64,000 nucleotides of DNA from Nitrospirota bacterium (GTDB taxonomy: Bacteria > Nitrospirota > JACRHL01), in NCBI GenBank assembly GCA_029881725.1, contig JAOUMB010000002.1, positions 43,398 through 107,397 on the forward strand. Direction: 5' to 3'. The stretch's first letter is position 1; the number at the start of each line of letters is the position of its first letter. A program made the position numbers and the translations under genes. Below the pieces are notes generated by a model that ran no database searches, had not been told where the DNA came from, and saw nothing but the letters and a program-made list of their open reading frames with translations. Of this stretch, positions 1,699-63,647 are shown piece by piece.

Positions 1699-3528
<1,830 letters not shown>

Positions 3529-13116: not shown

Positions 13117-15167
13117 AACCGACCGGTGACGGTTGCGGAAAGGGACCGTTCCGCCGCCAACGGCGCGATGGCGGAATTAAATGGAAATTCCACGTGCCCA
13201 TCCGCCAGATTCCGCCCCACCAGCGCGAACTCCAGGTGTTTTGCAGGGTGCCACGCCAGGCGCAGATCGGCGGTGAGATACGCGTCCACCGGCACCGGAC
13301 TGCCGCCGGTCTCCACGCTCAGATCACCCACGTAGCGCAACCACAGGTCGGTGCGGACCGTGCGCGATGGATCAAAGCCAAGGCGCACCGAAAGTTGCTG
13401 TTCAGGGGTGGCGGTTTCCTCCGCCTCGGCGGCGGGGTCGCCCACCGTGCTGTGCAGGGTGAGCTTCAGCCAGGAGTAGGCGGTGCGCACCCGCATCCGG
13501 GGGGATGGCCGCCAATCGGCGGCCAGTTCGGCGCCATAGGATTCGCCGGTGAGGTTGTTGTCGAAGTACTGCGGGTACACCTGGTAGGGAGTCCCCCCAA
13601 AGGTGTCTGGAAATGGCGCGCCGGAGGTGAAACTGAGCAGGTTTTTGTAGTCGTTGAAGAACAGGGCCAGATCCACCGTAAGCGCGTCTGAGGTTCGAGC
13701 CCGGTACCCCGCCTCCCAGGCCACCAGTTCCTCGGCCACCATGCCGCCGTCACCCATGAGGGTCACCACACCGGGAGGCGCACCGGGAATGACGCTGATT
13801 GCGAGCCGCATGTCGTGATCGGAGCGCGAGGGCTGACGGATGGCGCGGGCCAGCGACGCCCACAGGGAGTGATTCCCGTTGGGCGCCCACAGCAGGCGCG
13901 CGCCGGGCTGCACCTCCACGCCGGTATAGTCGTTGTGCTCCACCTTCACCCCTGCGGTCAGGCGCAGGCCGTCCGGCGGCAGGGCGATTTCGTCCTGCAC
14001 GAATACGTTGTACAACGGGGCGGTGCGGTGGGTGGCGGTGTAGCGGATGCGCAGGTTATCGTCGATGTCGTCGGTGGTCAGGGTCGCCCCGGCGCCCCAC
14101 ACCAGGTCGTGGCGCGCGCCCGGCGAAAAGCGGTGGCGCACCTCCAGCGCGGTGTTTTGCATGGTGCCGGAGAAGGTCACGCCGTTGCGCCGGGCACTGT
14201 CGGTGTAGAACTTCAGTTCCAGATCGGAGGTGTTGGAAAAGGTACGCACCCATCTGGCCTGCAGGTTGTAGCCGTCCACCTCGTCGTCCGCGACGCGGGT
14301 GGACGAATAGGGCGGGACCAGAAACAATTCCTGCACTTTCTCGCCAAAATAGCCGTCGTAGGCGTCTCCCTGCAGGGTGAGCGCGTCACCAGGAGCCGTT
14401 TTCAGGTCCACCCGGAACCCGCCGCGCACGACCTGCTGCTCGTCCCCATAGCCGGTACCGTCCTCGCTCCGGTATCCGTCCCGCAGGTCCAGCGTGGCGT
14501 ATGCGCGATAGCTGCCGTCGTGGCCAACGGCTCCCCCCTGCCGCGCCGCCAGCCGGGCCCGGTCGATGGTCCCGCCACTGGCGGAAACGTACTGCCCGCG
14601 CGAGTCGTGGGCCGATGCGGTGATGATGTTGATCACCCCGTTGACCGCGTTGGCACCCCACAGGGTGGCGCCAGGACCACGAATGATCTCGATGCGCTCG
14701 ATGTCCTCGAAAAGGGTGTCCTGCACATCCCAGAATACGCCGGAAAATAGCGGCGTATACAGGGGGCGGCCATCCATCAGCACCAGCAGCTTGTTGGTCC
14801 ACCGGTCGGAAAAGCCGCGGGCGCTGACCACCCAGGAATTGGGGGCGATCCGGGCCACATGCAGGCCCGGCACCATGCGCAGCAGGTCCGGCAGCGTGGA
14901 GGCGCCGGAACGGCGGATATCGTCACGGGTGATCACGAACACCGCAGCGGGAACATCGGCAAGGCGGCTCGCCTTTTTCATTGGCGAAACCACCTCGATT
15001 TCCATCAGTTGTTCAATAGAAAGGTCGGTCAGGTCGTCGGGAAACTGCGCATGGGCGTGCCCCACCCCCAACAGCATTAATGCCGCGGCCAGCACGCACC
15101 GCCACCCGGCGGAACGGAGCTCCCCGCATTCCCGGCGCACCGCGCCACCCACCCACTGGAAAGACAT
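13113..15167 (-). CDS. TonB-dependent outer-membrane receptor
   Basis: A 684-residue TonB-dependent receptor with signal peptide (AAALMLLGVGHAHA). After it comes the LTDLSIEQLMEIEVVSP segment typical of one receptor subgroup. The plug domain follows (DVPAAVFVITRDDIRRSGA, IERIEIIRGPGATLWGANAV) and then a long beta-barrel ending in aromatic ...TVTGRF, the usual BamA signal. The ATG follows a GGGGGAGG ribosome-binding site. An extended -10 element (TGGTATACT) lies about 57 bases upstream. Substrate unknown. It heads an operon with a YfiR-like protein and a hybrid kinase, an arrangement that suggests signalling rather than simple uptake. Confidence 0.93.
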   Translation of the reverse strand: MSFQWVGGAVRRECGELRSAGWRCVLAAALMLLGVGHAHAQFPDDLTDLSIEQLMEIEVVSPMKKASRLADVPAAVFVITRDDIRRSGASTLPDLLRMVPGLHVARIAPNSWVVSARGFSDRWTNKLLVLMDGRPLYTPLFSGVFWDVQDTLFEDIERIEIIRGPGATLWGANAVNGVINIITASAHDSRGQYVSASGGTIDRARLAARQGGAVGHDGSYRAYATLDLRDGYRSEDGTGYGDEQQVVRGGFRVDLKTAPGDALTLQGDAYDGYFGEKVQELFLVPPYSSTRVADDEVDGYNLQARWVRTFSNTSDLELKFYTDSARRNGVTFSGTMQNTALEVRHRFSPGARHDLVWGAGATLTTDDIDDNLRIRYTATHRTAPLYNVFVQDEIALPPDGLRLTAGVKVEHNDYTGVEVQPGARLLWAPNGNHSLWASLARAIRQPSRSDHDMRLAISVIPGAPPGVVTLMGDGGMVAEELVAWEAGYRARTSDALTVDLALFFNDYKNLLSFTSGAPFPDTFGGTPYQVYPQYFDNNLTGESYGAELAADWRPSPRMRVRTAYSWLKLTLHSTVGDPAAEAEETATPEQQLSVRLGFDPSRTVRTDLWLRYVGDLSVETGGSPVPVDAYLTADLRLAWHPAKHLEFALVGRNLADGHVEFPFNSAIAPLAAERSLSATVTGRF

Positions 15168-16435: not shown

Positions 16436-17448
16436 TTTTCGGCGACTTCAAGCTCGTTGGATATTGCATGCGGGGGACGCTCGAATCGCGCCGTCACCAC
16501 CGGAACGAACGTGGGGTCGAAGCGACGCCACCCGGCCAGCAACTGAATGAACGCACCCGTGTACATCACCAGAAAATGGGGCCCCTTTGCAATCGAAACA
16601 ACCACCACGGTTGCGATGGCCGCCAGAAGGGCCGCGCCCCACAATCCCAGCCCACCAAAGCAAGCGGCCAGGGAAACACCCAAAAAAAAGAGGAAGGGGT
16701 ACGGGTAGTATCGTAGCAGTGACAGCAGATTCCCTGAGCCGAAACGGGATGCGAGCAATTGCCCGAATCCATAAAATTTCTTCCCCAACACGCCCGATGG
16801 AACAAAGTTTCCTGTCACGGTCCTCCACGCCGGAATGCGCTCGGTAAAATGGTCGACCATCGGGGTGTCCGTGTACCGCACCGGATAACCAGCTGCCACC
16901 ATACGGGAGTAAAGGTCGATCTCTTCATGGGAAAACAAGCACGGGTTCCAATTCCCGGCGACCATGACGGCCTCCTTCCGCAGCAAAACCGCACCCCCGA
17001 AATAGGGAACCGTTCTGTTCTCGCGGAAACCACTTCCAACCAATCGATCCCGGACTTTTCCGTCTGGATAGACATCCCGAAGCCCTCCCACAAACCCGCC
17101 ATGGGACGCGACAAGATTTTCGAGCCTGGCCAGAATTGCATAAAACTCCGGGTGCAGGGTCATGTCGGCATCAAGATACAAAACCCAGGAACCAGAACCT
17201 TCCAATGTGCCGATGAACCGCCCCGCGGAAGCACACAAATTTTTCGAACCATCCAGCACCAGCACACGATCGAAGAGCCCGCGGGCGAGAGATACGGAGT
17301 TGTCCGTGGATGCGGAATCGACATAGATCGTTTCGACACCAAAAGGCAATCCACTCAATGGTTCAAGGGAGTTGACCAGCCGGTCAATACTGGCGGACTC
17401 GTTGCGACCAATCACGCACACGGTAAGTGTAACCGGGAAGAAATTCAT
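16432..17448 (-). CDS. Glycosyltransferase family 2 with C-terminal membrane region
   Basis: A 338-residue GT2 enzyme. The N-terminus has the GT-A fold start TVCVIGRNESASIDRLV, the nucleotide-binding YVDSASTDNS, and the metal-binding YLDADMTL (DXD) near residue 95. The C-terminal third has two hydrophobic helices (FLFFLGVSLAACFGGLGLWGA region and the next), so it is membrane-attached. It overlaps both neighbours by four bases (ATGA). It probably adds a sugar to the lipid-linked repeat unit; donor and acceptor are unknown. Confidence 0.85.
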   Translation of the reverse strand: MNFFPVTLTVCVIGRNESASIDRLVNSLEPLSGLPFGVETIYVDSASTDNSVSLARGLFDRVLVLDGSKNLCASAGRFIGTLEGSGSWVLYLDADMTLHPEFYAILARLENLVASHGGFVGGLRDVYPDGKVRDRLVGSGFRENRTVPYFGGAVLLRKEAVMVAGNWNPCLFSHEEIDLYSRMVAAGYPVRYTDTPMVDHFTERIPAWRTVTGNFVPSGVLGKKFYGFGQLLASRFGSGNLLSLLRYYPYPFLFFLGVSLAACFGGLGLWGAALLAAIATVVVVSIAKGPHFLVMYTGAFIQLLAGWRRFDPTFVPVVTARFERPPHAISNELEVAEK

Positions 17449-18710
17449 CGATATCGAAGCCCCCTCGGTTTAAGCACATCCAACCGAGCCAGAAAAGAAC
17501 TGAATGCCGGCAACGCCGCAACCAGCAAAATACCGTACCCAGGTATGTTGTGCCTCATGGCAGTGCCATAATTTGCAGTTCCGAGCGCCCACACAAAAGA
17601 GATCGAAACGAATATGGCGACCAGTAGCGACTGAGTCCGCCTGACCCGCGTGTTTCCCCGATACAGGGTGATTAACGCACAGGCAATCAGAAGCAGCCGG
17701 AGCATACCCTCCATTGACCCGAACAGGTCCTTTGCTGTGCGCACCCACCAGGGAAATGGCGTTACCCAGAAGTACACCATGGACTGGACTGCCGTTGCCA
17801 AAAAAACAACGGGATTCGACGAGTCCAGAAGCGGCCCATAATCTGACCTCCCACCCGCTCCCCCAAGGTCGTTTTGATATTCGCTGACAACCTGGGTGAC
17901 ATCCCCCTGTGAAAGACGTGCCACTAAAAACATGCCACTGATATCCGACGATTTTGAAACAACAACAGGCAGGGCGCTTGTGGCCAACAGCAGGCATAAC
18001 AATAGAACACTCAGATGTACGGAACGATTGCGCCGATACCGACGTTGCGAACTCACGGTCAATGGCCAGTAGGCAAGCATGGGAAGCAGCAGCACGGAAT
18101 AGATGAGCATCCCTTTATGGGTGAATCCGAAAAGAGCCGTGGAAACCGTACAGAGGAGAAGGTATTTTCCTTTCCCGGTAAAGTGGAACTGTACGGCGTA
18201 ATAGACCGAGACCAACAAAAACAGGGACTCGTACGCCTCCCGAATGGTGATCGCAGTGTTCAGCAGAACGGTTGGCCAGCAACCAAAAAGCAGAACAATC
18301 AGCCACATGTTTTGTCGATGGTCCACCAGATGACAAAGCGCAACCAGCACACAGGTCGCAAAAGTGAACGCCAGCACCGAAAGCTCATTCCCAACCAACC
18401 AGGATGACCCGAAAATGCGGTATACGACGCCTAAAAACTGTATGTAGGCCTCGGCCCCGATGGCAAGCTCAACGCTTCCCGCCTTCTGCCATTCCGTCGC
18501 ATACAGATGAAAACTGCTGGGATCGCGTTCGGTAATCCCGCGAATCTGGCCCACAAATGCCAGCCAGATCGCCACCACGTGGTGCGCGGAAACAACTGTC
18601 CACACCGCAAGCACGGTAGACCGCCTCATCCGGACCGTGTGGAACAGCAACGGGACAAAATAGGTCATCACCAGAATGATGAAACCTGTAATGTCCCCTG
18701 AGGTCAGCAT
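17445..18710 (-). CDS. Polytopic membrane protein, candidate polysaccharide polymerase (Wzy-like)
   Basis: The ORF track starts far upstream inside the previous gene; the ATG at 18710 (MLTSGDITGFIILVMTYF) gives 421 residues, though its ribosome-binding site is weak. About ten hydrophobic helices can be counted, with a loop containing ITIREAYESLF and a large extracytoplasmic loop around YQNDLGGAGGRSDYG. No glycosyltransferase motif is seen. In an operon with a Wzz-like regulator and a flippase, the missing function is the Wzy polymerase, and length and topology fit. Wzy proteins share little sequence, so this is inference from context. An EpsG-like role is also possible. Confidence 0.55.
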   Translation of the reverse strand: MLTSGDITGFIILVMTYFVPLLFHTVRMRRSTVLAVWTVVSAHHVVAIWLAFVGQIRGITERDPSSFHLYATEWQKAGSVELAIGAEAYIQFLGVVYRIFGSSWLVGNELSVLAFTFATCVLVALCHLVDHRQNMWLIVLLFGCWPTVLLNTAITIREAYESLFLLVSVYYAVQFHFTGKGKYLLLCTVSTALFGFTHKGMLIYSVLLLPMLAYWPLTVSSQRRYRRNRSVHLSVLLLCLLLATSALPVVVSKSSDISGMFLVARLSQGDVTQVVSEYQNDLGGAGGRSDYGPLLDSSNPVVFLATAVQSMVYFWVTPFPWWVRTAKDLFGSMEGMLRLLLIACALITLYRGNTRVRRTQSLLVAIFVSISFVWALGTANYGTAMRHNIPGYGILLVAALPAFSSFLARLDVLKPRGLRYR

Positions 18711-49838: not shown

Positions 49839-52800
49839 ATGGAGTCGAGCCGCAACCTGTTCGGCAGTTCCGTGGATCTGGCCTGCGGCAAGGTACGCTA
49901 CATGACCGCCCGCGAACCGCAATGGAAGCGGTGGTGGCTGGTGGGCCGCTTTATGCGCGGCTACTACGCGCCGAAAACCGCCGCGCGGCTGCTTGGCGAC
50001 ACCCTGAAAATGGCAGCCTCCCTGCGGCTGGACAAATCCGTTTCCAAGGCGCTCACCTTCAAAACCGTGGGCGGTTGGGTGAGCAACTCGTTCGGCCCCG
50101 GAGCGCGGCCTCCGAAGGGCTTCCGCCTGGAGATGCGCTCCGCGGGCGAGCGCAAGGAAATCAGCGATCTTCCGATCGGCGTGCGGGGCATGGTTTCGCG
50201 CATGACCCCCTCCCTGTCGCGGGCCCTGGCGGCCGTGTACCGCAACGACACCACCCCCATCGAAAAACGCCTGGGCGAAGCGGTGGGGCACGTGGTGTCC
50301 GGCCTGCGCCTGAGTGACATGCTGATCGGCCTGCTGGCCGGAGCGGTGTCCGGGGCATGCGCCCTGGGAAGCGCCGTGATCGATCTGCTGCGCTATTACG
50401 TATTCAAGGTGTCCGCCGCCAAAATGCTGGCCGAACGGGTCACCGCCGACAGTGCCCGCATCAAGGATCAGCGGGAGTTGACCGCCGCCCCGGCGGACCT
50501 GACCATGGCCGGACGGCTGGCCACCAACACCTATCAGGAGGGTTCCGCAGCCCACATCCGCGTGCTGTGGCCCGATACCCTGCCGGAACACGGCCAGTTG
50601 GCGGACGCCCCCTACTGGTCCGTCTGCCCCGCCGGGGTATATGCCTTTGAGCCGTCCCTGGCCGGACACGGGGAGGCCACCGTCAACTGGGAAAACTGCA
50701 TCAAGTGCGAGTCGTGCTGGCAGTCGGCCGGAGCCGGCGTGCGCTGGGGCCGCCATACCGACCACCGGCTGATCTACCGCCCGGACACCCCGGCCCTGGA
50801 CCTGATCATGCCGCACGCCGAGTCCACCACCCATGCGCCGCACACGGAAACCACCGCCGCGCTTCCGGAACAGGCCCGGGGCGGCATCCACGCAGAGCCG
50901 CTCAAGGAGGTGGCGCGCCTGGCCCAGAGCGCCCACGCGGCCCTGACCCAGTTTGAAATTGCCGCCGCCAACGTTCCACGGGTGGCCGACGCCACCCGTC
51001 TGGAATGGCCGCGCCGCACCGGAGACGCCTCGGTACACCGCCTGCGGGCCCTGGAAACGGAGTTGACCGGCTCGGAAATCCTGCTGCTTCCCATGCGGGC
51101 CGGACTGGCCCACTCCCCGTTCACCGATCTGGCCCAGGCGCTGGCCGACGAGGGCGAAAGCCTGTCCGGGCACCTGCGCAACGGCGATCTGTTCGAAGCG
51201 GTTGCTTCCGCCCGGAGGGTGCGCGAAACCGCCGTGGCGGAGTTGTTTTCCGTGCTCGGCATCGATCCCCCCGGGGGCCCGGTGAACCTCACCCCGATGG
51301 CCGACCCGTTCGCCCCGGGAGCGGTGGAATCCGCCCTGCGCCAGCGGTTCCCGGACACCCGTATCAAGGAGTGGGAGCGGTACGGTCTGGAAGGGGCTGC
51401 CGCCCGTGAACTGGCGGACCACTTTAACGATCTGACCACCCCGACGGCGGAGCAGCCGCTGCCGGCGGACACCCTGGCCCACTTGCGTGCGTGGAGTTCC
51501 ATCCACGCGGGGGTGGCGACCCTGGGGCTGGCGCGCATCGCCGCGCGCAGCGCCACCGGCAATGCCAACGCGGTGCTGATGGACGGCTCCGGCCTGAGCG
51601 CCTCCCCGGATGGCGGCAACACTCGTCTGAGCGGCACCCTGGTTCTGGTTCCCGCCGCCTTGGGCGGTGATCTGATCATCACCCGGGACGGGCACGCCCA
51701 CACGGTTTCCGGCGACGATCCGGGACTGTCCCGCCGCAAGGTGGCGGCGGGCGGCCTGCACCCGGCGGGCTTCGAGACCATCCAGGTGGACGTGACCGTG
51801 CCCGCGGCGAAATCCAGATCGACCCACGCCGGGCTGCGCACCTTCCTTGCCTACGGCTACGGAACCATTGCCCTGGGCGCGGGCGACTATCTGGCGCGGC
51901 GTTCCCTGGAGCAGGGCCTGGGCCGCATCCAGTTCCCGGGTCAGATGAAAGACACCCAGGGGCACGACGGCGTGGCCAAGTTCGGCGCCGTCAAGGCGCT
52001 GGTGGCGCGCACCCTGGCCTGGCGCGGCCTGACCGCCGCCGTGGTGGAGCATACCAGCGGCCAGCCGGATCTGGCCGCCGCCGTGGCGGCCCTGGCCTTC
52101 TGCCCCAAAAACGGCCGCATGTCCTACGACGCCGGGCAGACCTTTGGCGGCACCGGCTACTCGGAGGACGACCTGCTGGCCCGGTTTTACCGCGACAGTT
52201 CGGTGTTTCCGTTCCTGGCCCCCGGCCACGGGGCGGTAGCGCGCGTGGCTTCGGAGTGGCGTGGTGACCGCTCCATTCCGCTGGCGGCCCGCCTCATCCC
52301 GGAAGCGGCCAGTGCCTTTGCACAGCTGGCCGAAGGACCGTTCAGCGACGAAGTGCAGCGCTGGCAGCGTGCCGCCGCCCAGGTGGACCGGCTGGAGGCC
52401 GACAATGGCATCGCCCGCGAGGCCACCGTGCTGGCCGTCGCCCTGTTCCACATGCTGACCGGGGCCGGCAGGGATCTGACCGCCGGACAGCCGGTGGAAG
52501 ATCAGTCCGCCCTGCTGCGGGTGCTGCTGGCGGAACTGGAGCAGATGGTCCGGCAGGCCACCACCCTGCCCGGCGCGGGCGCCCCGGCCACCGTCGCCCA
52601 TTTTCCCGAAATCCCCGACCGGGATCCGATTGCGCTTCCCATCTCTTACGCACAATTGGTGGAACGGGACGACCCTTATTCCTCCGGCGATTTCCTGCTT
52701 GGAAAGGACGTGGGCCAGCCGCGCTTCATCCCGGAAATCCAGCTTCACGACCTGGAACTGCGCGACAAGTGGGAGCACTGCTACCACTGGTTCCTGGAGC

Positions 52801-55800
52801 GGTGCGGCAGGATTCCGGGCGGCTCCGCACCGGATGGGGACGGCTTCTACGAACACTACATCGAGCGCATCCACAGCATTCCGCCGGACATGCTGGAAGG
52901 GTTCAAGGAACACGGCTTCTTCTGCACCGTGGTGCCCAAGGAACTGGACGGCTTGGGGTGGCGCAAGATCGGTTACTACCTGCTGGTGTCCGGGGCCATG
53001 CGCCACGGAGACGCCTCCCTGTCCCTGTTGATCATGGCCAGCACCAGCATCGGCATCACCCCGGTGCTGATCGGCCTGGGCAAGGAGGTGCCACTGGTAT
53101 CCGGCGAACTGAGCGCCTTCGCCAGCGAGCCGGCCCGGCTTGGGGACATCCAGAAGGGGCTGGACGCCATCGTCAAGAACCTCGACCGGCCCGACCCGGG
53201 GAAGCTGGAACGGGATTTCAAGAAGCTGCTGGACAAGGTGGACGGGCTGCGCAAGACCAAGGTGGTCAAATACCTGGCGCAGAATTTCCTGAAGGCCTTT
53301 TATACCGCCGCCCTGGCGGGCCAACGGCGTGATTTTTCGGCCTTTGCCGACGGCCTGCGCCAGGCGCAGCCGCTGCTGGCCAAACTGCCGGAAACCGTGC
53401 GTCACGCGCTGGACGAACTGCCGCGCCGGGAGCGCGCCCACCAGTTTTTCCTGCGCGGCATGAGCCACGGCGGTGTGGCGGCGTTCGCCCTGACCGAACC
53501 CACGGCGGGATCGGACTCCGGCGGGGTCACCACCACCGGCCACCTCAAATCGGCCACGGTGGAGCCGTTGCCCGACGGGCGTTTCCGGTTCGAGATCGAC
53601 GGCAACGAGCGGTTCCTGCTGGATGCGGACCGCATCGAGTTCAAGGACCGTTCCATGCTGTACAAGCTGGCGGACGGCACCCTGGCACCGGTGTCCACGG
53701 CCACCTATGACTACCAGACGGATCAGGGCGTGCGCACGGTGAAGATCGGCGGCAAGGACCTGCCGTTTCACGACATCGCCCAGGTGCGCGAAGGCAACGT
53801 CTACGAGTTTTATGAGCTCACCGGCGCCAAGATGTGGATCACCAACGGCCGCGTCTGCACCCACCTGTCCATGTATGTGAAGACCGACGAGGGCATTACC
53901 GGCCTGATGGTCGATCGCCACGCGGAAGGGCTGATCATCGGCCGCGACGAGGACAAGATGGGCCAGCAGGGGTCGCCCACCAACGAAATCGCCATCGACC
54001 GGGCGCGGGTGCCGCGCGAAGGGGTGATCGGCTACGAGGGGCATGGACAGGTCAATGCCCTGGACACCCTCAACGTGGGACGTTGCGGCTTGGCCACGGC
54101 CAGTGTGGTGATGGGCCGCCGCATGCTGGTGGAAGCCCTGAAGCGCATGCCGGACCACCCGGACCGGGAACGGGTGCTGGCGGAATGCTCCGCCCGCATC
54201 TTCGCCACCGAATCGCTGGTGTTCCATCTGATCGGCCGCTTCGACAACCACCACACCGAATCGCTGCGCATGGAAAGCGCCATCGCCAAATACGCGTGCT
54301 CCGAGATGTTCCACGATGTGCTGGATCGCATCGAAGGGCTGTGGGGACCGGCGGGGCAGACCCGTGACGAATTGCTGGAGAAGGCGCGCCGCGACGCCCG
54401 CATTCTCAACATCTACGAAGGCACCAACGAGGTCCAGCGGTTCCTGATCCTGCGGGAACTGGCCGGCATGATCAAAACCTGGGCGCCGGTTGAGATTCCC
54501 GAGGACGACGCCTTCGGGGTGCGCATGGCCCATCACAAGGAACGCCTGCGCCGCTATGTGGCCGAGGCGGACGACCGGCTGGGCGACTCCCTGTGGCTGG
54601 ACGCGGCCATTCAGCCCGCCTTCTTCCCGCTGGCGGAGATGGCCGGAGAACTGTACCAGTTGGATACGGTGATCTACCGGCTGCGCTGGCTGGACGAACA
54701 GCGGGCCGCGCTGGGCGACTATGCCACCACCATGATCGCCGTGGGCGAACGGGCCGCCGAACAATGCCTGGATCGGCTGGAGGAACTGGCGGCGCGTTAC
54801 GAACAGGGGCGCCGGGCGGCCCTGGACAGCCGCTATCCCGCCGAGGTCGTGGCCTCCGACGCCGCCATGCAGGAGCGCAGCGCGCAAACCCCGCCGGTCG
54901 GCGTGCTGAACCTGGATATGACCATCACCTGCCTGGTGCGCCCCGCCGCCGTGGTCTCCCCCCGGCCCCGGCTGGACGATCTGGGGCAGATTGCGGAGCG
55001 GGTGTGGCAGATGCACCCGGCCGATGAAGCCGCGCTGGCCACGGCCCTGGAGATTGCCGCCCGCGCCCATGGACGGGTGACCGTACAGGCGGTCTCCTGC
55101 GGCGGGGCACAGGGCGAACAGATGCTGCGCGACGCGCTGGCCGCCGGGGCGGAAAGCGCCACCCTGCTGCCGATTCCCGCTCACGCCACCCCGGCCGAGT
55201 GGGCCACCGCCCTGAAGGGCGTCAAGGGCGCCCGATGGGGTGATCTGGTGGTGTGCGGGAAGAACGGCGCGGATGGGGAATCACCCATTGGCGCCGCCGT
55301 CGCCGCCGCACTGGTGGCCAACTACCTTGAGTCCCCCTCCGTCGGTGTGACCGATGGTGGTGACGCACTTACCGATGCCAACGGCCAAGTTCTGGGGCCG
55401 AATACAGTGGTCTGCATGGACCGGGTGGGCGCCAGGGTCAACGCCACGGTCAGTGGCCGTGTGGTTGCGGGTAATGCGGGGATTGCCCGCCCCACCGTGG
55501 ACATGGAGCCGGCGCGGGTGGCGTTCTCCCATCGGGAGGGCACCCCCGCCGCGGGCCAGGTGGCCACCACCCCGACCGCGGCAGCCAGCCGCTTGATGGC
55601 CCTGGCGGATGCCGTTCGTCAACACGTGGCAGACCCGGTTTCCGGGACCATGGGCAAAGCCCCCCGGCCGGGCGGCGATGGGATTTGGGCCTTCGCCCAG
55701 GCCCACGAAACCCGGGGCGCCCTGGCCGCCTTTGGCGCGGCGGTGCAGTTGGGCAAGACGCTGGGAATTCCGGCCCGGGCCTTGGTCACCGGTTCGGAGG

Positions 55801-57035
55801 ACGGCATTCGCGCCGTGGCGGGACTCGCCCGGGATGCGGGGATCAGTTCGTGTCACGCGGTGAATACCGATGGAGCGGCCCTGTCCTTTTCCGGTGCCCG
55901 CAAACTGGTTTCGACGGTGATCGGGGACCACCCGGAACCCTGCCGCGTGGTTGCCCCCCGTGCCTGGGGTCCGGCCCTTGCGGCAGCGGGCGCCAACGGC
56001 CCGGCGGTGATGCTGTTCGGTGTCACCGGCATTGAGGGCAAGGGCGCCACCCTGAAGCTGGTACGGCCCGCCTACGACGACAAGCTGGTCCAGATGGCCC
56101 ACGTGGAACCGGCACGAGGGCTTTTGTTCACCGTTGCCGACAGTGCCGACTTCGGTCTGGCCGGACCGGTAACCAACTTCGCCCTCACCCGCGACGAAGC
56201 CGCAGTGGGTCCGGATGATCTGGACCCCACCTTCGTGCTGCCGGTGGATACGCTGGCCAATGCGGATGTGATCGTGGATGTGGGGTACGGCGCGGGAAGC
56301 GACGCGGGCCTCCGCCTGGCCAATGATCTGGTCGCGGCACTCAAGGCCATGGGCCTGTCTCCGCACCTGGGCGCAACCCGCAAGATCACCCAGGGCCTCG
56401 GATTGATGGGGCTGGACCACCAGATCGGTCAGACCGGACTGCGCGTCAATCCCCAGATCCTGTTTGCGCTGGGAATCTCCGGGGCACCGCAGCACGTGGA
56501 CTATATCGGCGGACGGGCCCAGGTTTTCGCATTCAACCGCGATCCGGACGCCCCGTTGATGAGCATGCGCAAGCCGGGAGTCACCGTGCATCCGGTGGCC
56601 GGGGATCTGTTCGCCACGGTTCCCGAATTGATCCGGGCCTTACGCGGCGGCCCGGAGCCAGGCCCCACCAGCCCCGGCCCGAAAACCCGTAAACCGGAAC
56701 CTCAAACAGCCGTCGCGGAGCCTTCCGTCGCCGAGGCGCCCGTTGCGGAGGAAGCGGTTACGGGTGAGGGACCAACTGAATCCCCGGTAGTTTCGGTGGA
56801 CGCAGAGGAAACCCCACAGGTCACCGAGACGCCAGAGAAGGCGACTACCCGCAAGCGCCCCGCTCCGGATGGATCGGCCAAGAAGGCCCCGGTCAAAAAA
56901 TCACCGGCCAAAAAGGCCCCGGCCAAAACCGGGACCGACGCTGCGGTGAAAAAGAAGCCCGCCACCAAGGGAACCAAGCCCGCCTCTGGCAAGACCGGCG
57001 CAGCCAAGCCAAAGGGCCCGAAAAAGAAAGACTAG
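49839..57035 (+). CDS. Giant fusion: ETF-QO tail/ferredoxin + two acyl-CoA dehydrogenase modules + EtfB + EtfA + basic tail
   Basis: A 2,398-residue frame. In order, with rough residues: FixC tail and membrane-type helices (1-190), [4Fe-4S] domain CPAGVY...CIKCESC (260-305), a degenerate acyl-CoA dehydrogenase-like module (350-920, with AGQTFGGTGYSEDDLL but FPFLAPGHG where the catalytic Glu loop should be), a second dehydrogenase (930-1665) with ALTEPTAGSDSGG, GAKMWITNG and the catalytic Glu in NIYEGTNEVQ, EtfB-like (1690-1900), EtfA with FAD-binding KITQGLGLMGLDHQIGQTG and GISGAPQH (1950-2270), and a Pro/Lys/Ala-rich basic tail. Each part is normally a separate gene product. Together they would take electrons from an acyl-CoA to quinone in one chain. 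The in-frame TAG upstream complicates this. Confidence 0.85.
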   Translation: MESSRNLFGSSVDLACGKVRYMTAREPQWKRWWLVGRFMRGYYAPKTAARLLGDTLKMAASLRLDKSVSKALTFKTVGGWVSNSFGPGARPPKGFRLEMRSAGERKEISDLPIGVRGMVSRMTPSLSRALAAVYRNDTTPIEKRLGEAVGHVVSGLRLSDMLIGLLAGAVSGACALGSAVIDLLRYYVFKVSAAKMLAERVTADSARIKDQRELTAAPADLTMAGRLATNTYQEGSAAHIRVLWPDTLPEHGQLADAPYWSVCPAGVYAFEPSLAGHGEATVNWENCIKCESCWQSAGAGVRWGRHTDHRLIYRPDTPALDLIMPHAESTTHAPHTETTAALPEQARGGIHAEPLKEVARLAQSAHAALTQFEIAAANVPRVADATRLEWPRRTGDASVHRLRALETELTGSEILLLPMRAGLAHSPFTDLAQALADEGESLSGHLRNGDLFEAVASARRVRETAVAELFSVLGIDPPGGPVNLTPMADPFAPGAVESALRQRFPDTRIKEWERYGLEGAAARELADHFNDLTTPTAEQPLPADTLAHLRAWSSIHAGVATLGLARIAARSATGNANAVLMDGSGLSASPDGGNTRLSGTLVLVPAALGGDLIITRDGHAHTVSGDDPGLSRRKVAAGGLHPAGFETIQVDVTVPAAKSRSTHAGLRTFLAYGYGTIALGAGDYLARRSLEQGLGRIQFPGQMKDTQGHDGVAKFGAVKALVARTLAWRGLTAAVVEHTSGQPDLAAAVAALAFCPKNGRMSYDAGQTFGGTGYSEDDLLARFYRDSSVFPFLAPGHGAVARVASEWRGDRSIPLAARLIPEAASAFAQLAEGPFSDEVQRWQRAAAQVDRLEADNGIAREATVLAVALFHMLTGAGRDLTAGQPVEDQSALLRVLLAELEQMVRQATTLPGAGAPATVAHFPEIPDRDPIALPISYAQLVERDDPYSSGDFLLGKDVGQPRFIPEIQLHDLELRDKWEHCYHWFLERCGRIPGGSAPDGDGFYEHYIERIHSIPPDMLEGFKEHGFFCTVVPKELDGLGWRKIGYYLLVSGAMRHGDASLSLLIMASTSIGITPVLIGLGKEVPLVSGELSAFASEPARLGDIQKGLDAIVKNLDRPDPGKLERDFKKLLDKVDGLRKTKVVKYLAQNFLKAFYTAALAGQRRDFSAFADGLRQAQPLLAKLPETVRHALDELPRRERAHQFFLRGMSHGGVAAFALTEPTAGSDSGGVTTTGHLKSATVEPLPDGRFRFEIDGNERFLLDADRIEFKDRSMLYKLADGTLAPVSTATYDYQTDQGVRTVKIGGKDLPFHDIAQVREGNVYEFYELTGAKMWITNGRVCTHLSMYVKTDEGITGLMVDRHAEGLIIGRDEDKMGQQGSPTNEIAIDRARVPREGVIGYEGHGQVNALDTLNVGRCGLATASVVMGRRMLVEALKRMPDHPDRERVLAECSARIFATESLVFHLIGRFDNHHTESLRMESAIAKYACSEMFHDVLDRIEGLWGPAGQTRDELLEKARRDARILNIYEGTNEVQRFLILRELAGMIKTWAPVEIPEDDAFGVRMAHHKERLRRYVAEADDRLGDSLWLDAAIQPAFFPLAEMAGELYQLDTVIYRLRWLDEQRAALGDYATTMIAVGERAAEQCLDRLEELAARYEQGRRAALDSRYPAEVVASDAAMQERSAQTPPVGVLNLDMTITCLVRPAAVVSPRPRLDDLGQIAERVWQMHPADEAALATALEIAARAHGRVTVQAVSCGGAQGEQMLRDALAAGAESATLLPIPAHATPAEWATALKGVKGARWGDLVVCGKNGADGESPIGAAVAAALVANYLESPSVGVTDGGDALTDANGQVLGPNTVVCMDRVGARVNATVSGRVVAGNAGIARPTVDMEPARVAFSHREGTPAAGQVATTPTAAASRLMALADAVRQHVADPVSGTMGKAPRPGGDGIWAFAQAHETRGALAAFGAAVQLGKTLGIPARALVTGSEDGIRAVAGLARDAGISSCHAVNTDGAALSFSGARKLVSTVIGDHPEPCRVVAPRAWGPALAAAGANGPAVMLFGVTGIEGKGATLKLVRPAYDDKLVQMAHVEPARGLLFTVADSADFGLAGPVTNFALTRDEAAVGPDDLDPTFVLPVDTLANADVIVDVGYGAGSDAGLRLANDLVAALKAMGLSPHLGATRKITQGLGLMGLDHQIGQTGLRVNPQILFALGISGAPQHVDYIGGRAQVFAFNRDPDAPLMSMRKPGVTVHPVAGDLFATVPELIRALRGGPEPGPTSPGPKTRKPEPQTAVAEPSVAEAPVAEEAVTGEGPTESPVVSVDAEETPQVTETPEKATTRKRPAPDGSAKKAPVKKSPAKKAPAKTGTDAAVKKKPATKGTKPASGKTGAAKPKGPKKKD

Positions 57036-58500: not shown

Positions 58501-58543
58501 AAAAAAAGAGTGGGAGGCGAGGCCTCCCACTCTTTATTTTTTG
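58501..58543 (-). terminator. Terminator at the end of the cbb3 operon
   Basis: AAAGAGTGGGAGGC / GCCTCCCACTCTTT, three-base loop, flanked by A and T runs, so it works both ways. It separates the oxidase operon from pgi. Confidence 0.9.
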
Positions 58544-58578: not shown

Positions 58579-59013
58579 CTACTCGTAGTAGGTCGGGCAG
58601 TTCGCCGCGACAAAGTAGAGTCCAATCACCACCGTCAGCACCCAAACGACCGTCAGGACATAGCCGCCGTCAAACCAGGGGGCCTGGTTCGAGGTCAGCG
58701 CCTGGGTGCACTTGGGATCCGGCGTGTCGGTTACGCAGCCACGGTAGGGCGGCTCTTTCTCCACGCCAACGTACTTCTGGTCGCCGATGATGCTCGGCGT
58801 CAGGAAGAACGAACGCTGATCGAAGTTGTACGCAGAAGTCATGAAGTCATACTCCTTGCGCTCACCCCACAGCGGGAAGGTAATCAGCACCGAGGTGAAG
58901 ATCACCATTGCAATCAGGCTCGTCATGAAGACCGGCCACGGACGGCCACCCTCGCGGATGCCGTCGTAGAGCTCCCATTTGAGCTCTTCGAAGGTCAGTT
59001 TGCGACCTGCCAT
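58579..59013 (-). CDS. Two-helix membrane protein of the cbb3 operon
   Basis: A 144-residue protein with two transmembrane helices (near residues 28-50 and 115-137). The loop between them carries two cysteines (YRGCVTDTPDPKCTQ) that could form a disulfide, and the C-terminus ends AANCPTYYE. GAAGGAG precedes the ATG. No match to CcoP, CcoQ or CcoS was recognised: it has no CxxCH heme motif. It is the last gene of the operon, 75 bases after ccoO. Possibly a structural or assembly subunit of the oxidase. Confidence 0.7.
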   Translation of the reverse strand: MAGRKLTFEELKWELYDGIREGGRPWPVFMTSLIAMVIFTSVLITFPLWGERKEYDFMTSAYNFDQRSFFLTPSIIGDQKYVGVEKEPPYRGCVTDTPDPKCTQALTSNQAPWFDGGYVLTVVWVLTVVIGLYFVAANCPTYYE

Positions 59014-59088
59014 GTTAATTCTCCTTCTTCACTAATGAAGCGGTAGCACGGCCGGGGGGCGCATGGCCCCCCGGCCGGGTCGCCAACG

Positions 59089-59649
59089 TTACTTGAGGCT
59101 CACCATGTAGGCCGCAAGCGACTTCAGCTCATCCGTCGACAAAAAGTCGAAGGACTGCATGATCGATTTCGGCGCCACGGAGCGCGGGTCCTTGTGGTGC
59201 TGCAGGTGCCACGGAATCGACGGCATGCGGCTGCCCACATGCATCAGATCCGGAGCCTTGCGGTCGGAACCGACCACGGTCGGCGCTTCACCCACGAAGT
59301 CGCCGGCCAGCGGCGGAGCACCGAAGTACTCCCAGTCCGCACTCTGCTCGGGGAGCAGGGTGTGGCAGTGCCAGCAACCCTCGCGGATGAAGATCTTCTT
59401 CCCAACGCCAACCGGGTTGGGGATCATCTTTCCGCGCTTCTCGATTTGGGGGGTGTTCCACCCCTTCATCAGCGGGTCACGGACCGACCATGCGGAGGTA
59501 CCGTACATCACCTGCTTTTCCAGCGCCAACTGCGTCGCGGGAACGGATGCCAGGTAGACACCGCCGACGCCGATGGTCATGAACACCGCGATCCCGAAGA
59601 TCAGCAGGAACATGATTACGCCGATCTTGTACTCTTTATAACCACCCAT
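59089..59649 (-). CDS. ccoO: cbb3-type oxidase monoheme subunit (CcoO-like)
   Basis: A 186-residue membrane-anchored c-type cytochrome. One N-terminal helix (IGVIMFLLIFGIAVFMTIGV), then the single heme motif GCWHCHTLLPEQ near residue 92, APDLMHVGSRMPSIPWHLQHH with the axial Met region, and the end LSTDELKSLAAYMVSLK. The HTLLPEQ and PDLMHVGSR features match CcoO. It is shorter than most CcoO. It follows ccoN by 28 bases. No diheme CcoP gene is present, so this heme may be the only c-type heme of the complex unless ccoP is elsewhere. Confidence 0.88.
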   Translation of the reverse strand: MGGYKEYKIGVIMFLLIFGIAVFMTIGVGGVYLASVPATQLALEKQVMYGTSAWSVRDPLMKGWNTPQIEKRGKMIPNPVGVGKKIFIREGCWHCHTLLPEQSADWEYFGAPPLAGDFVGEAPTVVGSDRKAPDLMHVGSRMPSIPWHLQHHKDPRSVAPKSIMQSFDFLSTDELKSLAAYMVSLK

Positions 59650-59676
59650 TGGTGTGTTCTCCTATACAGCTTTCGC

Positions 59677-61098
59677 TTAGGTGTAGTACGCGGTGGCCGG
59701 AGGATTCTTCTCCGTCACCGGCTCACCAGCGGTGGCCGTCTTGTAGAGGTTGTACAGGAAGATCCACTGACCCAGAACGATCGTCAGACCGAACAGGGAC
59801 CGCCCAACCATGTACGGGTGGGTGGCGTACACGACGTCGATGAAGGTGGTGTTGTACACCTTGCCCGACGCCTGGATCAGACCGGCCAGAGTCAACGTGG
59901 TCCAGAACCCGATGAAGCCGACGGTGGTCAGCCAGTAGTGGGTGGTGGCCAGAGACTGGCTGTAGATCTTCCGCTGGAACAGCTTCGCAATCGCGTAGTA
60001 GGTCGCGCCGATCTCGATGAAGGTCGAGAATCCGAGCAACGCAAAGTGCGCGTGCGCCACGATCCAGTGCGTACCGTGAATGTACCAGTTGATCGCACGG
60101 GTCTGCTGGAAGGCACCCTGGAAGTTCAGGGGCACCGCCATCAGGGTACCGGTGAGAGCGAACTGGACGGACACGTTATCCGAGAACATCTGCCACTTGC
60201 CCTGCACGGTCAGCACCATGTTGGTGATGAACGCCAGCGACGGGATGAGGATCATCACGCCGGACACCGAGGCAAACGACTTCATCCACTCCGGGATCGG
60301 AGCACCCATCAGGTGGTGCGCACCCGGAGTCGAGTAGAACGCCACGATGGTCCAGAAGTGAAGGTGGCCGATCTTGTGGCTGTAGAGCACGTTGCCGGTC
60401 ACCTTCGGGATCACGTAGTACGCGATCGCCGCGGACACCGGGGTGATCCACAGGCCCAGCACGTTGTGCGCGTGCCACCAGACCATGTAGGCCTCGTTCA
60501 GACCGGTAACCGGGAACAGATCCGGAATCGCGCCGATGAAGTAGGTCATCCAGATCATCACCAGGGCTCCCAGGAAGAACCAGATGGTGATGTAGATGCC
60601 CTGGGTACGACGCTGGGTCACGGTCATGAAGGTGTTAACCGCGGCAAAGCCGAGGATGAACACCAGCACGTAGATATCAACCGGCCAGATCAGCTCCTGA
60701 TACTCACGACCGGAGTTGGCGCCCACCAGCAGCGACACGGCCGCAACGACCAGACCCACGTTCCACAGCCAGATGTTCCACAGGCCGAGCTTCTCGCTCC
60801 ACAGCCGGCAGTTACACAGGGCCGGGGTCATGTAGTACATGGCGGCCACGAAAGCCATGGAGATCCAGCCGAAGATCACCAGGGTAATGTGCATCGGACG
60901 CACACGGCCAAAGGCGAACGCCGAAGTCAGCGGACCCATCACGTCCACGCCGTTCAGCAGATCGGGCCATGCGATCCGCAAACTTGTAAAGAACCCGAAA
61001 GAGGCACCCAGGCACAGCCACACCACAGCGCTAAAGAACGCATGCTTGGCGGCGGTACCGGGCCGAATCCCCTCGTAGGTCGCAGTTGCAGTACTCAT
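59677..61098 (-). CDS. ccoN: cbb3-type cytochrome c oxidase subunit I (CcoN-like)
   Basis: A 473-residue heme-copper oxidase subunit with about twelve helices. Expected ligands: low-spin heme His in RPMHITLVIFG, CuB ligands WWHAHNVLGLW and the pair in YSTPGAHHLM, and heme His residues in HWIVAHAHFALLG. The Tyr in FYSTPGAHH lies where cbb3 enzymes have the cross-linked Tyr, six residues before the His pair; nitric oxide reductases lack this Tyr, so O2 reduction is the better call. The ATG has AAAGGAG upstream. It is fifth to seventh in an operon of unfamiliar small proteins. Confidence 0.93.
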   Translation of the reverse strand: MSTATATYEGIRPGTAAKHAFFSAVVWLCLGASFGFFTSLRIAWPDLLNGVDVMGPLTSAFAFGRVRPMHITLVIFGWISMAFVAAMYYMTPALCNCRLWSEKLGLWNIWLWNVGLVVAAVSLLVGANSGREYQELIWPVDIYVLVFILGFAAVNTFMTVTQRRTQGIYITIWFFLGALVMIWMTYFIGAIPDLFPVTGLNEAYMVWWHAHNVLGLWITPVSAAIAYYVIPKVTGNVLYSHKIGHLHFWTIVAFYSTPGAHHLMGAPIPEWMKSFASVSGVMILIPSLAFITNMVLTVQGKWQMFSDNVSVQFALTGTLMAVPLNFQGAFQQTRAINWYIHGTHWIVAHAHFALLGFSTFIEIGATYYAIAKLFQRKIYSQSLATTHYWLTTVGFIGFWTTLTLAGLIQASGKVYNTTFIDVVYATHPYMVGRSLFGLTIVLGQWIFLYNLYKTATAGEPVTEKNPPATAYYT

Positions 61099-61150
61099 AC
61101 CAAACCACTCCTTTCGATGCCGGAACCCAAAGTTCCGGCGATCCAGTTAA

Positions 61151-61366
61151 TCACTCGTCCGGGGCCTGCTGCTTCATCAGCATGAACATCATCGCCGCCA
61201 CCACAAGCCCGATTGCGAACGTCCACTTGAACATGTAGATGTAGTCGCCGGTCCACACATCGTGGCGGCCGGACCACATGCCCAAATTGACTGCGGAGCC
61301 GATAACGGTTCCCAGGCCGAAGCCGAGAAACGCCCCATTCAGCACCCACGTAAGCATCTTTTCCAT
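61151..61366 (-). CDS. Small two-helix membrane protein upstream of ccoN
   Basis: A 71-residue protein from ATG 61366 (GGGAGGAATTG site upstream); the ORF-track start lies in the previous gene. Two helices (VLNGAFLGFGLGTVIGSAV and FKWTFAIGLVVAAMMFMLM) with a short loop. Size and position suggest a CcoQ- or CcoS-like accessory subunit, but no sequence signature was recognised. Confidence 0.65.
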   Translation of the reverse strand: MEKMLTWVLNGAFLGFGLGTVIGSAVNLGMWSGRHDVWTGDYIYMFKWTFAIGLVVAAMMFMLMKQQAPDE

Positions 61367-61395
61367 TTCAATTCCTCCCTTGATCGCCAGACGGG

Positions 61396-61611
61396 CTACT
61401 CGGAGTATTTCCCGGCCTTGCCACTGACCATCATGTAGATCAGAAAGACACTGTTGCAGGCGAGAATAAAGCCACAAACCGCGGCAAACGTAGACAGCCA
61501 GCCCGGACCATGGTGAGCAGGATTCCCGTGCGCCTTTTCGAGCGCGAAGGCCAGATCACCCATCCCGACCAACACAGCGGTGGTCACCATGGCAATTGTC
61601 GACTTGCTCAT
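61396..61611 (-). CDS. Small membrane protein of the cbb3 operon
   Basis: A 71-residue product with AAAGGAGGGATCTG before its ATG. An N-terminal helix (IAMVTTAVLVGMGDLAFAL, perhaps a signal anchor) and a second helix (FAAVCGFILACNSVFLIYMM) are separated by a His-rich loop KAHGNPAHHGPG, which could bind a metal such as copper. No family recognised. Confidence 0.65.
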   Translation of the reverse strand: MSKSTIAMVTTAVLVGMGDLAFALEKAHGNPAHHGPGWLSTFAAVCGFILACNSVFLIYMMVSGKAGKYSE

Positions 61612-61655
61612 TCAGATCCCTCCTTTTTCCAATTCAGGTTGCCCAACGAACAACC

Positions 61656-61907
61656 TTACGGATTGTCCAGATAAGGATCCTTCCGATCGACGTCGATGTC
61701 GTCGATGGCGTCCTTGTACCACAGCACACCGCCCGCCACCCAAACAGCCACATAGGTGATGAGGATGTACATAAACGGTGTGTTCGGACCCCACCACGGG
61801 TTACCCCCGATGTCTTCGCCGAACACCTTCACATTCTGGGCCATGATGATCTCGGCGATCACCGCCACAGCAATAATCACACCCCAGATCAGGAACTTCC
61901 CTTGCAT
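61656..61907 (-). CDS. Small two-helix membrane protein of the cbb3 operon
   Basis: An 83-residue protein preceded by AAAGGAGATAG. Helix one is FLIWGVIIAVAVIAEIIM, helix two YILITYVAVWVAGGVLWY, with the Trp/Pro-rich loop GGNPWWGPNTPF between them and an acidic end DAIDDIDVDRKDPYLDNP. No signature was recognised. It sits 44 bases before the His-rich protein and likely belongs to the oxidase complex or its assembly. Confidence 0.65.
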   Translation of the reverse strand: MQGKFLIWGVIIAVAVIAEIIMAQNVKVFGEDIGGNPWWGPNTPFMYILITYVAVWVAGGVLWYKDAIDDIDVDRKDPYLDNP

Positions 61908-61977
61908 GGGCTATCTCCTTTGTTTCTCCCGGCGACTTCCGCCGTTCTTCCGTGGAACACCGAGCTTCCCATCGACC

Positions 61978-62601
61978 TCACCCTCGGGGCCGACTTAAAT
62001 GGAAGACTACCGGTGCCGCCGGGTCACCTCCCGCCTCCCGGATTCCAAGCACTTTCAGCTCAGCTGAAGCGGGTGGATCCGGATGGGGCTGGAAGAAAAC
62101 CAGAGACTCCCGGGTATACCCCGGAAACACTCTGGCCACCCCTAGCTTCCGTTTCTGGAACTGGTCCAGAACCTGTTTGTGCTCACGCCGGGCCGTGGCC
62201 GAGGCGTAAGCACCTGTCATTCGCTCATTAAACAGCCGAAGCGCCTCTTCGGTGCTCAGAGCGCGCATCTCCCGAGCACCAACACGAAGCATTACCCGGT
62301 CAAAATCCACATCGACCGGCCCCTCGGCCGCATTCGCGACACTCAACTCAAACACCCAGAAGGTACTCACCAGCAGCGATGAGATGCCTTCCGTCGCCTC
62401 CCCGCGGGAAACGACCCGAACCTTAACTCCCCCGGTGGTTACCTCCGGAGGATCCACCCGAAAGACCAGACCTTGCTGCCAGCCCTCGGGATTGGAAAGA
62501 AACCCGACATACCTCGAAATGGCGAGTATTAAACTGATCGTGGCGGCAGAAGTCAACAAGACCGCGAGAATGACGACTACCTTTTTTCTGGTGTCCGCCA
62601 A
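61978..62601 (-). CDS. Hypothetical membrane-anchored protein with Ig-like region
   Basis: A 207-residue protein, TTG start three bases after the previous stop. One N-terminal helix (VVVILAVLLTSAATISLILAI), then an extracytoplasmic domain rich in beta strands (VTTGGVKVRVVSRGE; WVFELSVANAAEGPVDVDFDRV), resembling a small Ig-like fold as in the C-terminus of CcoG, but without the Fe-S or helices of CcoG. A helical part follows (LRLFNERMTGAYASATARRE). Function unknown. The operon position suggests a role in oxidase assembly. Confidence 0.6.
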   Translation of the reverse strand: MADTRKKVVVILAVLLTSAATISLILAISRYVGFLSNPEGWQQGLVFRVDPPEVTTGGVKVRVVSRGEATEGISSLLVSTFWVFELSVANAAEGPVDVDFDRVMLRVGAREMRALSTEEALRLFNERMTGAYASATARREHKQVLDQFQKRKLGVARVFPGYTRESLVFFQPHPDPPASAELKVLGIREAGGDPAAPVVFHLSRPRG

Positions 62602-62604
62602 TGC

Positions 62605-62988
62605 TCACCCCGCCTCTCCTTCCTTGCCACCGCGGCGCCGCCAGGTGTACCAGAAGATCACCACAAACCCGCCGCCCACGTATAACAGGGCCGCCAGCAT
62701 GCCGCCATCCAGGAACGACCCGCCGCCCGCACCGGCCGCCAGGCGCTCCAGCGGGTTGCCGCCACCACCCGTCAGGAATGGTGCGTTCAACATCACCGCC
62801 AGCAGCATGACCATGCCCACCATCACCGCCAGCCACCAGGGAATGTTCCGCTGGCTGCTCTCGATCCGGTTGTACAGGTCCGCATCTTCAAAGCGGTCCT
62901 GGTACGGGTCAGCCTGGGCAATCAGATCGTGATCCACGTCCAGTCCGCCACGCGGGGCCACCGGTTGAATGTCTTCCGGCAACGCCAT
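62605..62988 (-). CDS. Hypothetical two-helix membrane protein
   Basis: A 127-residue protein whose ATG overlaps the previous stop (TGATG). Cytoplasmic-type head rich in Asp (DVDHDLIAQADPYQDRFEDAD), helix one WWLAVMVGMVMLLAVMLNAPF, a Gly-rich loop GGGGNPLERLAAGAGGG, helix two LAALLYVGGGFVVIFWYTW and a basic end. No family recognised. Confidence 0.6.
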   Translation of the reverse strand: MALPEDIQPVAPRGGLDVDHDLIAQADPYQDRFEDADLYNRIESSQRNIPWWLAVMVGMVMLLAVMLNAPFLTGGGGNPLERLAAGAGGGSFLDGGMLAALLYVGGGFVVIFWYTWRRRGGKEGEAG

Positions 62989-63647
62989 CAGGAGGCCCCT
63001 TCCGGACCGGAGGCCACCGGCACCGCACGCGCATCGTCAAAAATACGGGGATCGTCAAAGCTGGGCTTCACCCGCTCTCCCTCTTCCGGGTAGGCGCAGT
63101 AGTCGGCCAGCACCGGGGTGAGCGTGTCCTCGAAATAGGAGCCCTTGAACTCGCCGCCCACCAGCAGGTCCCCCGCCTTGTCCAGATAGCCCAGAAAGTT
63201 CAGCAGCAGTTCGTCCCGCAGGCGCCCGTCACGCACATCAATCGACTCCACCCCGGACGCCCCGTCACGCAGCCCCTCAAACACCGACCAGAGCCACATA
63301 CGGGCCCCCTGCAGGTTGGAAAACACGGCGGACTCGCGGGTCCACGGCCGGCCCATCATGGGAAAGAATACGGATTCGTGGCGGACCAGCAGCCGGTCCA
63401 AGGTGCGCATTTCCGATTCCCAGGCGAATCCCAGCGGAACCAGGCCCTGCTCCGCGCGCTCCCGGGCGACCTGACCCAGACGCTGATAGCCTTCGAGGGC
63501 GGTCTGGAAATCGTTCGCGAAACGGGCACGCACCGGATCCGCCGGGGACACGGCCCACGCGGCAGCCGGAGCCATGCACGCCACCAGCAACACCAGTAAT
63601 GTCAGGAATCGGGACACCGCACTCCCCGCTTTACGAGACAGGCACAC
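62988..63647 (-). CDS. Hypothetical exported protein, first gene of the cbb3 operon
   Basis: The ORF track starts at 63716, but GTG 63647 has a GAGGAG site and a clean signal peptide (FLTLLVLLVACMAPAAAWA), and lies just downstream of a predicted promoter; this gives 219 residues. The mature part is mainly helical (ARFANDFQTALEGYQRLGQ; LLNFLGYLDKAGDLLVGGEF) with an ending that includes ADYCAYPEEGERVKPSFDD. No CxxCH or known metal motif. Family not recognised; periplasmic location is likely. Its stop overlaps the next gene. Confidence 0.6.
   Translation of the reverse strand: MCLSRKAGSAVSRFLTLLVLLVACMAPAAAWAVSPADPVRARFANDFQTALEGYQRLGQVARERAEQGLVPLGFAWESEMRTLDRLLVRHESVFFPMMGRPWTRESAVFSNLQGARMWLWSVFEGLRDGASGVESIDVRDGRLRDELLLNFLGYLDKAGDLLVGGEFKGSYFEDTLTPVLADYCAYPEEGERVKPSFDDPRIFDDARAVPVASGPEGAS

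Follow-up and report, generated by a model that had tools for sequence, protein, structure and literature searches.

The window that we analyzed is a 64,000-nt stretch of a draft Nitrospirota genome (126 contigs, estimated completeness of 98.35%), and its end coincides with the end of the contig that carries the genes discussed here (C81). Between positions 63647 and 58579, nine genes follow each other on the minus strand with spacings that range from a 1-bp overlap to 75 bp, and Shine-Dalgarno-like sequences precede them. In the order of transcription, these genes and the hairpin downstream are:

62988..63647, minus strand: p242, exported protein with a predicted helix bundle (open reading frame with Shine-Dalgarno sequence; AF2 model helical, pLDDT 68)
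62605..62988, minus strand: p127, two-helix protein without haem, paralogue of p144, in the family with a FixP_N-type anchor (family profile)
61978..62601, minus strand: p207, one membrane helix and a beta-sandwich domain, TTG start (predicted structure; orthologues)
61656..61907, minus strand: p83, two-helix protein with the invariant C-terminal IDDIDVDRKDPYLD, kept in four genera of the host family
61396..61611, minus strand: p71a, small membrane protein with a variable His-rich loop (alignment; resemblance to a micro-protein)
61151..61366, minus strand: p71b, two-helix protein found upstream of ccoN across the clade (synteny; alignment)
59677..61098, minus strand: CcoN, catalytic subunit, with all ligands and Tyr255 retained
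59089..59649, minus strand: CcoO, membrane-anchored mono-haem cytochrome c (one CWHCH; FixO match)
58579..59013, minus strand: p144, two-helix haem-less protein with a CcoP-type (FixP_N) N-terminal anchor (profile matches; synteny)
58505..58535, no strand assigned: terminator-like hairpin, bidirectional and intrinsic, 14 pairs and a T run, just past the last gene

This nine-gene operon is real, and its composition is more than chance since the gene set is kept in other genera and phyla. Inspection of the open reading frames and Shine-Dalgarno sequences bore out the gene order, strand, ribosome-binding sites, and overlaps or short gaps described in a first-pass annotation of this DNA. The annotation had counted six unknown proteins beside CcoN and CcoO; the operon actually encodes seven such companions. 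Only CcoN and CcoO were recognizable among its products using Pfam and NCBIfam, and ccoP, ccoQ, ccoG, and ccoI were all absent from the locus, as the annotation had stated. The open frame of p242 reaches 63716, and its most likely start is the GTG at 63647 because an AGGAG lies just upstream. Elsewhere in the window, positions 49839-57035 of the plus strand form a single open frame of 2398 aa, an unusual fusion in which acyl-CoA dehydrogenase-like parts, electron-transfer-flavoprotein-like parts, and a Lys/Ala-rich tail can be distinguished by eye.

The COX1 domain of Pfam spans the length of CcoN (266 bits), and the score against TIGR00780 (256 bits) did not reach the cut-off of 583 bits. The closest PDB chains are solved cbb3 CcoN subunits (219.6 bits, versus 47.4 bits for NorB); these matches and our tree both grouped the protein with cbb3 CcoN and not with the A, B, or NOR types. 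The ligand roles follow from an alignment with the P. stutzeri enzyme and from what is established about it. The haem ligands His70, His349, and His351, the CuB ligands His211, His261, and His262, and the active-site tyrosine of helix VII (Tyr255) were invariant in 27 of 27 members of the clade. Because all of these haem and CuB histidines and the tyrosine are kept, CcoN should be an O2-reducing subunit of the C family (cbb3). In addition, 35 positions carry a residue that all or nearly all clade members share and that 13 other cbb3 sequences do not have. The clade, which fills 27 rows of our tree of 48 haem-copper subunits and has an SH-aLRT of 99%, was sister to the remaining cbb3 oxidases sampled, including the canonical and the Nitrospira-type fused forms; this tree was a quick one with long outgroup branches, so that its rooting is uncertain.

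Close copies of CcoN (92-97% identical) were found in the other three genera of the host family. Homologues with 54-64% identity occur in Leptospirillaceae, Gallionellaceae, Ca. Nitrotoga, Ferrovaceae, Mariprofundaceae, Chromatiaceae, Arenicellales, and one Bacillota bin, and the clade includes Leptospirillum, Gallionella, Sideroxydans, Ferrovum, Nitrotoga, and Mariprofundaceae. We retained 80 loci for comparison: 15 of Leptospirillaceae type, where ccoN is apart from ccoO, and 65 others. The order p71b-CcoN-CcoO-p144 was complete in 61 of the 65 non-Leptospirillaceae loci, and p71b was present in 63 of them. In Leptospirillum, p71b adjoins CcoO; one single-contig Leptospirillaceae genome (G020) carries p71b-CcoO-p144 at about 649 kb and ccoN at 754 kb (the assignment to this family was read from matching contigs named Leptospirillum). 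A TatA-like gene follows ccoN in two loci of Leptospirillaceae (L039 and L040). Five genomes of the same family (G060, G055, G102, G091, and G094) present at least two copies or fragments of the clade CcoN on different contigs.

The first-pass annotation proposed a distinct branch of heme-copper oxidase with its own subunits or assembly set. The tree and the synteny of the loci agree with a deep cbb3 branch that comes with small proteins of its own; forms from Ferrovum JA12 (PMC4725956) and Sideroxydans (PMC8788666) had already been published, so the branch was known before. For the Ferrovum oxidase, only subunits I and II were reported, and the authors of that genome proposed a co-localized cytochrome c as the substitute for subunit III (PMC4725956). 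In Sideroxydans, the proximal and distal cbb3 clusters do not encode the same set of subunits (PMC8788666), and Zetaproteobacteria and Gallionellaceae present proximal or distal cbb3, or both (PMC7029218, PMC10734462). The host clade is probably the "distal cbb3" of the literature on iron oxidizers (PMC8788666, PMC7029218). The clade and its lack of CcoP are therefore known, and most of the subunit set is undescribed: in open-licence papers, we found no description of the p144/p127 anchor family, p71b, the micro-protein presented below, or the Nitrospirota-specific genes, nor of a complex or structure of the clade enzyme.

CcoO passed the cut-off of FixO (72.3 bits against 29.6) and scored below that of TIGR00781 (78 bits against 201). 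No di-haem CcoP was detected over the cut-off genome-wide, the best TIGR00782 score being 30.6 bits for a cut-off of 180, and no ccoP above cut-off was found in the four genera of the host family or in Leptospirillum. With TIGR00780 and TIGR00781 both below cut-off and no di-haem CcoP, the host enzyme does not classify as a canonical ccoNOQP oxidase; the placement of CcoN, the presence of p71b and p144, and the absence of CcoP fit the Ferrovum/Gallionella/Leptospirillum clade. The CcoN of the operon is the sole full-length haem-copper (COX1) subunit of the host genome, and no cytochrome bd was found there. This oxidase is thus probably the main or only terminal oxidase of the cell, as judged from a draft genome that was searched for haem-copper subunits and cytochrome bd.

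The last gene of the operon, p144, and its paralogue p127 share an N-terminal stretch (YDGI-x-E ... P ... helix) that is also that of FixP_N. The FixP_N model (PF14715) matched 16 of the 26 members of the p144/p127 family with a best E-value of 2.5e-7. One member (L051) scored 29.5 bits, over the gathering cut-off of 24.9, and the p144 of the window only 11.1 bits, so that a CcoP origin of this copy rests on its relatives. When the family profile was compared to all PDB sequences, the first four matches were CcoP chains (best E of 0.0087). No haem motif was seen in the aligned members, and the Cys pair of p144 is kept only within the host family. The small proteins had been presented as unknown, which stands only in part: the p144/p127 family appears to carry the CcoP anchor, and a match to a known Cco family, which would have spoken against the first-pass interpretation, is thus partly present. 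Comparisons of the small proteins of the window locus to FixQ, FixH, and FixS gave nothing above noise.

Across 148 relatives, the p144/p127 family and the clade CcoN were found together in 23 genomes. Neither was found in the others apart from one mismatch each way (G043 and G065), both in incomplete genomes, and the family is restricted among these relatives to the two families with the clade CcoN. The corresponding Fisher P of 1e-24 overstates independence, given that the species are related and that the pattern amounts to two families in the phylum plus linkage elsewhere. Small proteins occurring mostly without CcoN, the situation that would have spoken against the first-pass interpretation, were not seen in the case of p144/p127.

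The protein encoded upstream of ccoN, p71b, carries a conserved GxGxGxV motif and has no convincing kin in Pfam or the PDB. Between p71b and ccoN, a short open reading frame with a hydrophobic helix was found in 53 of the 53 proteobacterial loci with room for one, usually preceded by a strong Shine-Dalgarno sequence. At least 50 of these 53 frames encode the same micro-protein of about 30 aa (consensus MAxIAGxLGILLAFSSMWFSWYLLMP). Differences were seen in 39% of comparisons at codon position 1, in 23% at position 2, and in 59% at position 3, the pattern expected of a coding frame. The unannotated single-helix product, LAFSSMWFSWYLLMP, was observed in L073-L127 (e.g., L098 9824-9910), and it is possible that gene finders skip it. 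Its best match among the small frames of other loci is the second helix of p71a, with weak E-values (0.009 for the orthologue in G001 and a domain E of 0.042 for the window copy). The two proteins also occupy nearly equal positions in their operons. Based on this match and position, p71a is the probable counterpart of the proteobacterial micro-protein. We considered whether the micro-protein is CcoM or CcoQ and rejected both in view of a lack of PDB or Pfam support. CcoM, a 36-aa subunit of the P. stutzeri cbb3 enzyme (PMC10433244), is likewise very small, single-helix, and cbb3-linked, but has no sequence match to the micro-protein and is comparable in size and context only. The copper-handling role that had been suggested for the His-rich loop of p71a was also rejected because the loop varies and only PAHxGP is conserved among the four genera.

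The remaining three proteins, p242, p207, and p83, were detected solely in the host family; the profile E-values for the small proteins of the operon come from iterated searches inside the fetched loci, with no independent database. Orthologues of p207 are found in three related genera (AF2 pLDDT of 78), and a fold search returned only loose, general beta-sandwich matches (TM of about 0.3), among them a FixG-related domain and PCuAC copper-chaperone domains. There was no Pfam match for p83 and no fold match for p242. Such lineage-specific genes in a Nitrospirota family point to ongoing change of the complex.

Of the ccoP and ccoGHIS genes that might have been located elsewhere in the genome, ccoP is lacking over the cut-off, and CcoG-like and CcoS-like proteins are encoded at a second locus (contig C25, L045). 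The genes of this locus encode the CcoS-like protein (16.4 bits against FixS, below cut-off), an anchored one-haem cytochrome c, two 4-helix COX1-like proteins, a protein with an FGE-sulfatase domain, a thioredoxin-like protein, and a divergent CcoG-like ferredoxin (136.7 bits against a cut-off of 316.7). The COX1-like pair is located as follows:

L045:7822-8376 and L045:9391-9882: two 4-helix COX1-like proteins, with counterparts in L156, L157, and L113

Genes of the C25 type directly adjoin CcoO-p144 in Leptospirillum and are found close to ccoN in Proteobacteria. The window operon and C25, which are on different contigs in the host, are therefore probably one system in two pieces. Haem-copper oxidases have a pseudo-threefold build, and in line with it the COX1-like pair aligns with more than one of the thirds of CcoN, and one protein of the pair with all three (these pairwise E-values are uncorrected for membrane composition). 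Both proteins keep an HxH motif that resembles the one of helix X, and in the genomes examined they were always found with the clade CcoN. A long match span in L051-L056 was initially a candidate CcoN insertion and was rejected, as it corresponds to a separate 4-helix COX1-like gene just upstream. The FGE-sulfatase (SUMF1-like) domain protein has a membrane helix (L045:8378-9376; L113:14877-15974), and such a protein lies inside the oxidase cluster of Nitrospirota, Leptospirillum, Nitrotoga, and Mariprofundaceae. One relative from the phylum (L047, G048:C15) carries a fused CcoN-CcoO gene and, no more than 17 kb away, three further divergent haem-copper subunits (1844-3403, 12599-14017, and 16892-18523).

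The cbb3 oxidases of iron and nitrite oxidizers (Ferrovum, Gallionellaceae, Ca. Nitrotoga, Leptospirillum, and Mariprofundaceae) are the closest known systems: their CcoN is 54-60% identical and of the same clade, and they share with the host a one-haem CcoO, adjacent p71b and p144, and the lack of CcoP. In contrast to them, the host operon adds p242, p127, p207, p83, and a longer p71a, its CcoO is 186 aa long instead of about 320, and its cytochrome c, COX1-like, and CcoG genes sit at another locus. Canonical ccoNOQP and ccoGHIS systems (P. stutzeri 3mk7; Sphingobium and Mesorhizobium operons) have a similar CcoN fold, ligands, tyrosine, and CcoO, and the N-terminal anchor of their CcoP is recognizable in the p144 family of the host, whereas the host lacks the di-haem CcoP and CcoQ, possesses other small proteins, and has its CcoN in a separate clade. 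The fused cbb3 of Nitrospira and Nitrospina (PMC3578206; L046) also serves cbb3-family respiration in nitrite oxidizers of related lineages, but its CcoN is 33-34% identical to that of the host and in a separate clade, its CcoN and CcoO form one fused frame, a Gly is found at the position of the host Trp207, and p144 is missing.

Taken together, it is likely that the operon encodes a CcoP-less, lithotroph-type cbb3 O2 reductase that has small subunits of its own and receives electrons from one-haem cytochromes. From the gene content, ligands, phylogeny, synteny, co-occurrence, and the absence of a recognizable CcoP and bd, together with the known chemistry of cbb3 oxidases, we infer the membership of the complex, the route of electrons, and the roles of all the small proteins. 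A periplasmic cytochrome c, likely including the anchored one-haem cytochrome of C25, would deliver electrons to the haem of CcoO. From this haem c, electrons would pass to the low-spin haem b and then to the b3-CuB-Tyr center of CcoN, where O2 would be reduced to water. The CcoP anchor would persist as the haem-less p144 (and p127), probably occupying the CcoP site and holding the complex together. Roles as small structural subunits, comparable to those of CcoQ or CcoM, are probable for p71b and p71a, and p83, p207, and p242 probably serve the Nitrospirota family as additional subunits or in assembly. The CcoG-, CcoS-, and thioredoxin-like proteins encoded by C25 would also take part in assembly. 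More tentatively, the clade might constitute a structurally distinct class of cbb3, in which the p144 relic, p71b, and a micro-subunit (p71a here) replace CcoP/CcoQ and the COX1-like proteins, each similar to one third of CcoN, belong to the enzyme itself or to a dedicated relay that passes electrons through haem b.

Alternatively, the small proteins might be assembly or copper-delivery factors analogous to CcoH, CcoS, or Sco, the mature enzyme being CcoN-CcoO with a soluble cytochrome c. The FixG-related and copper-chaperone domains among the fold matches of p207 point in this direction, as do the His loop of p71a in the host genome and the helix and beta-sandwich of p207, which we take to be the general layout of FixH/CcoH. 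However, these fold matches are weak, the loop is not conserved, p144 resembles the anchor of a structural subunit, and the assembly-type genes are found at the second locus instead, which makes this scenario rather unlikely.

It is still less probable that the operon belongs to a standard cbb3 oxidase, with ccoP and the assembly genes located elsewhere or in an assembly gap and with small proteins that are unrelated neighbors. The genome is indeed a draft in 126 contigs, its FixO and COX1 domains are standard, and a CcoG-like protein is located elsewhere, but four genera of the family and Leptospirillum all lack a ccoP over cut-off, p71b and p144 are linked to the clade CcoN across phyla, and this CcoN sits in a separate clade. 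Finally, the divergence of CcoN from TIGR00780 and its Gln327, where P. stutzeri CcoN has Glu323, could be expected of an NO reductase or of some other haem-copper branch that does not use oxygen. Gln is found at this position in other cbb3 sequences too, however, Tyr255 is invariant, cbb3 CcoN chains far outscore NorB, and the haem-copper and bd searches found no other O2 reductase in the genome, so that we consider this last explanation highly improbable.

The likely CcoP-less oxidase belongs to an enzyme type that terminates respiration in many iron and nitrite oxidizers, and its partner proteins, the micro-protein included, can now be named and tested. An anchor of CcoP type without haem points to a possible route to the loss of the electron-entry subunit, with electrons coming directly from dedicated cytochromes.
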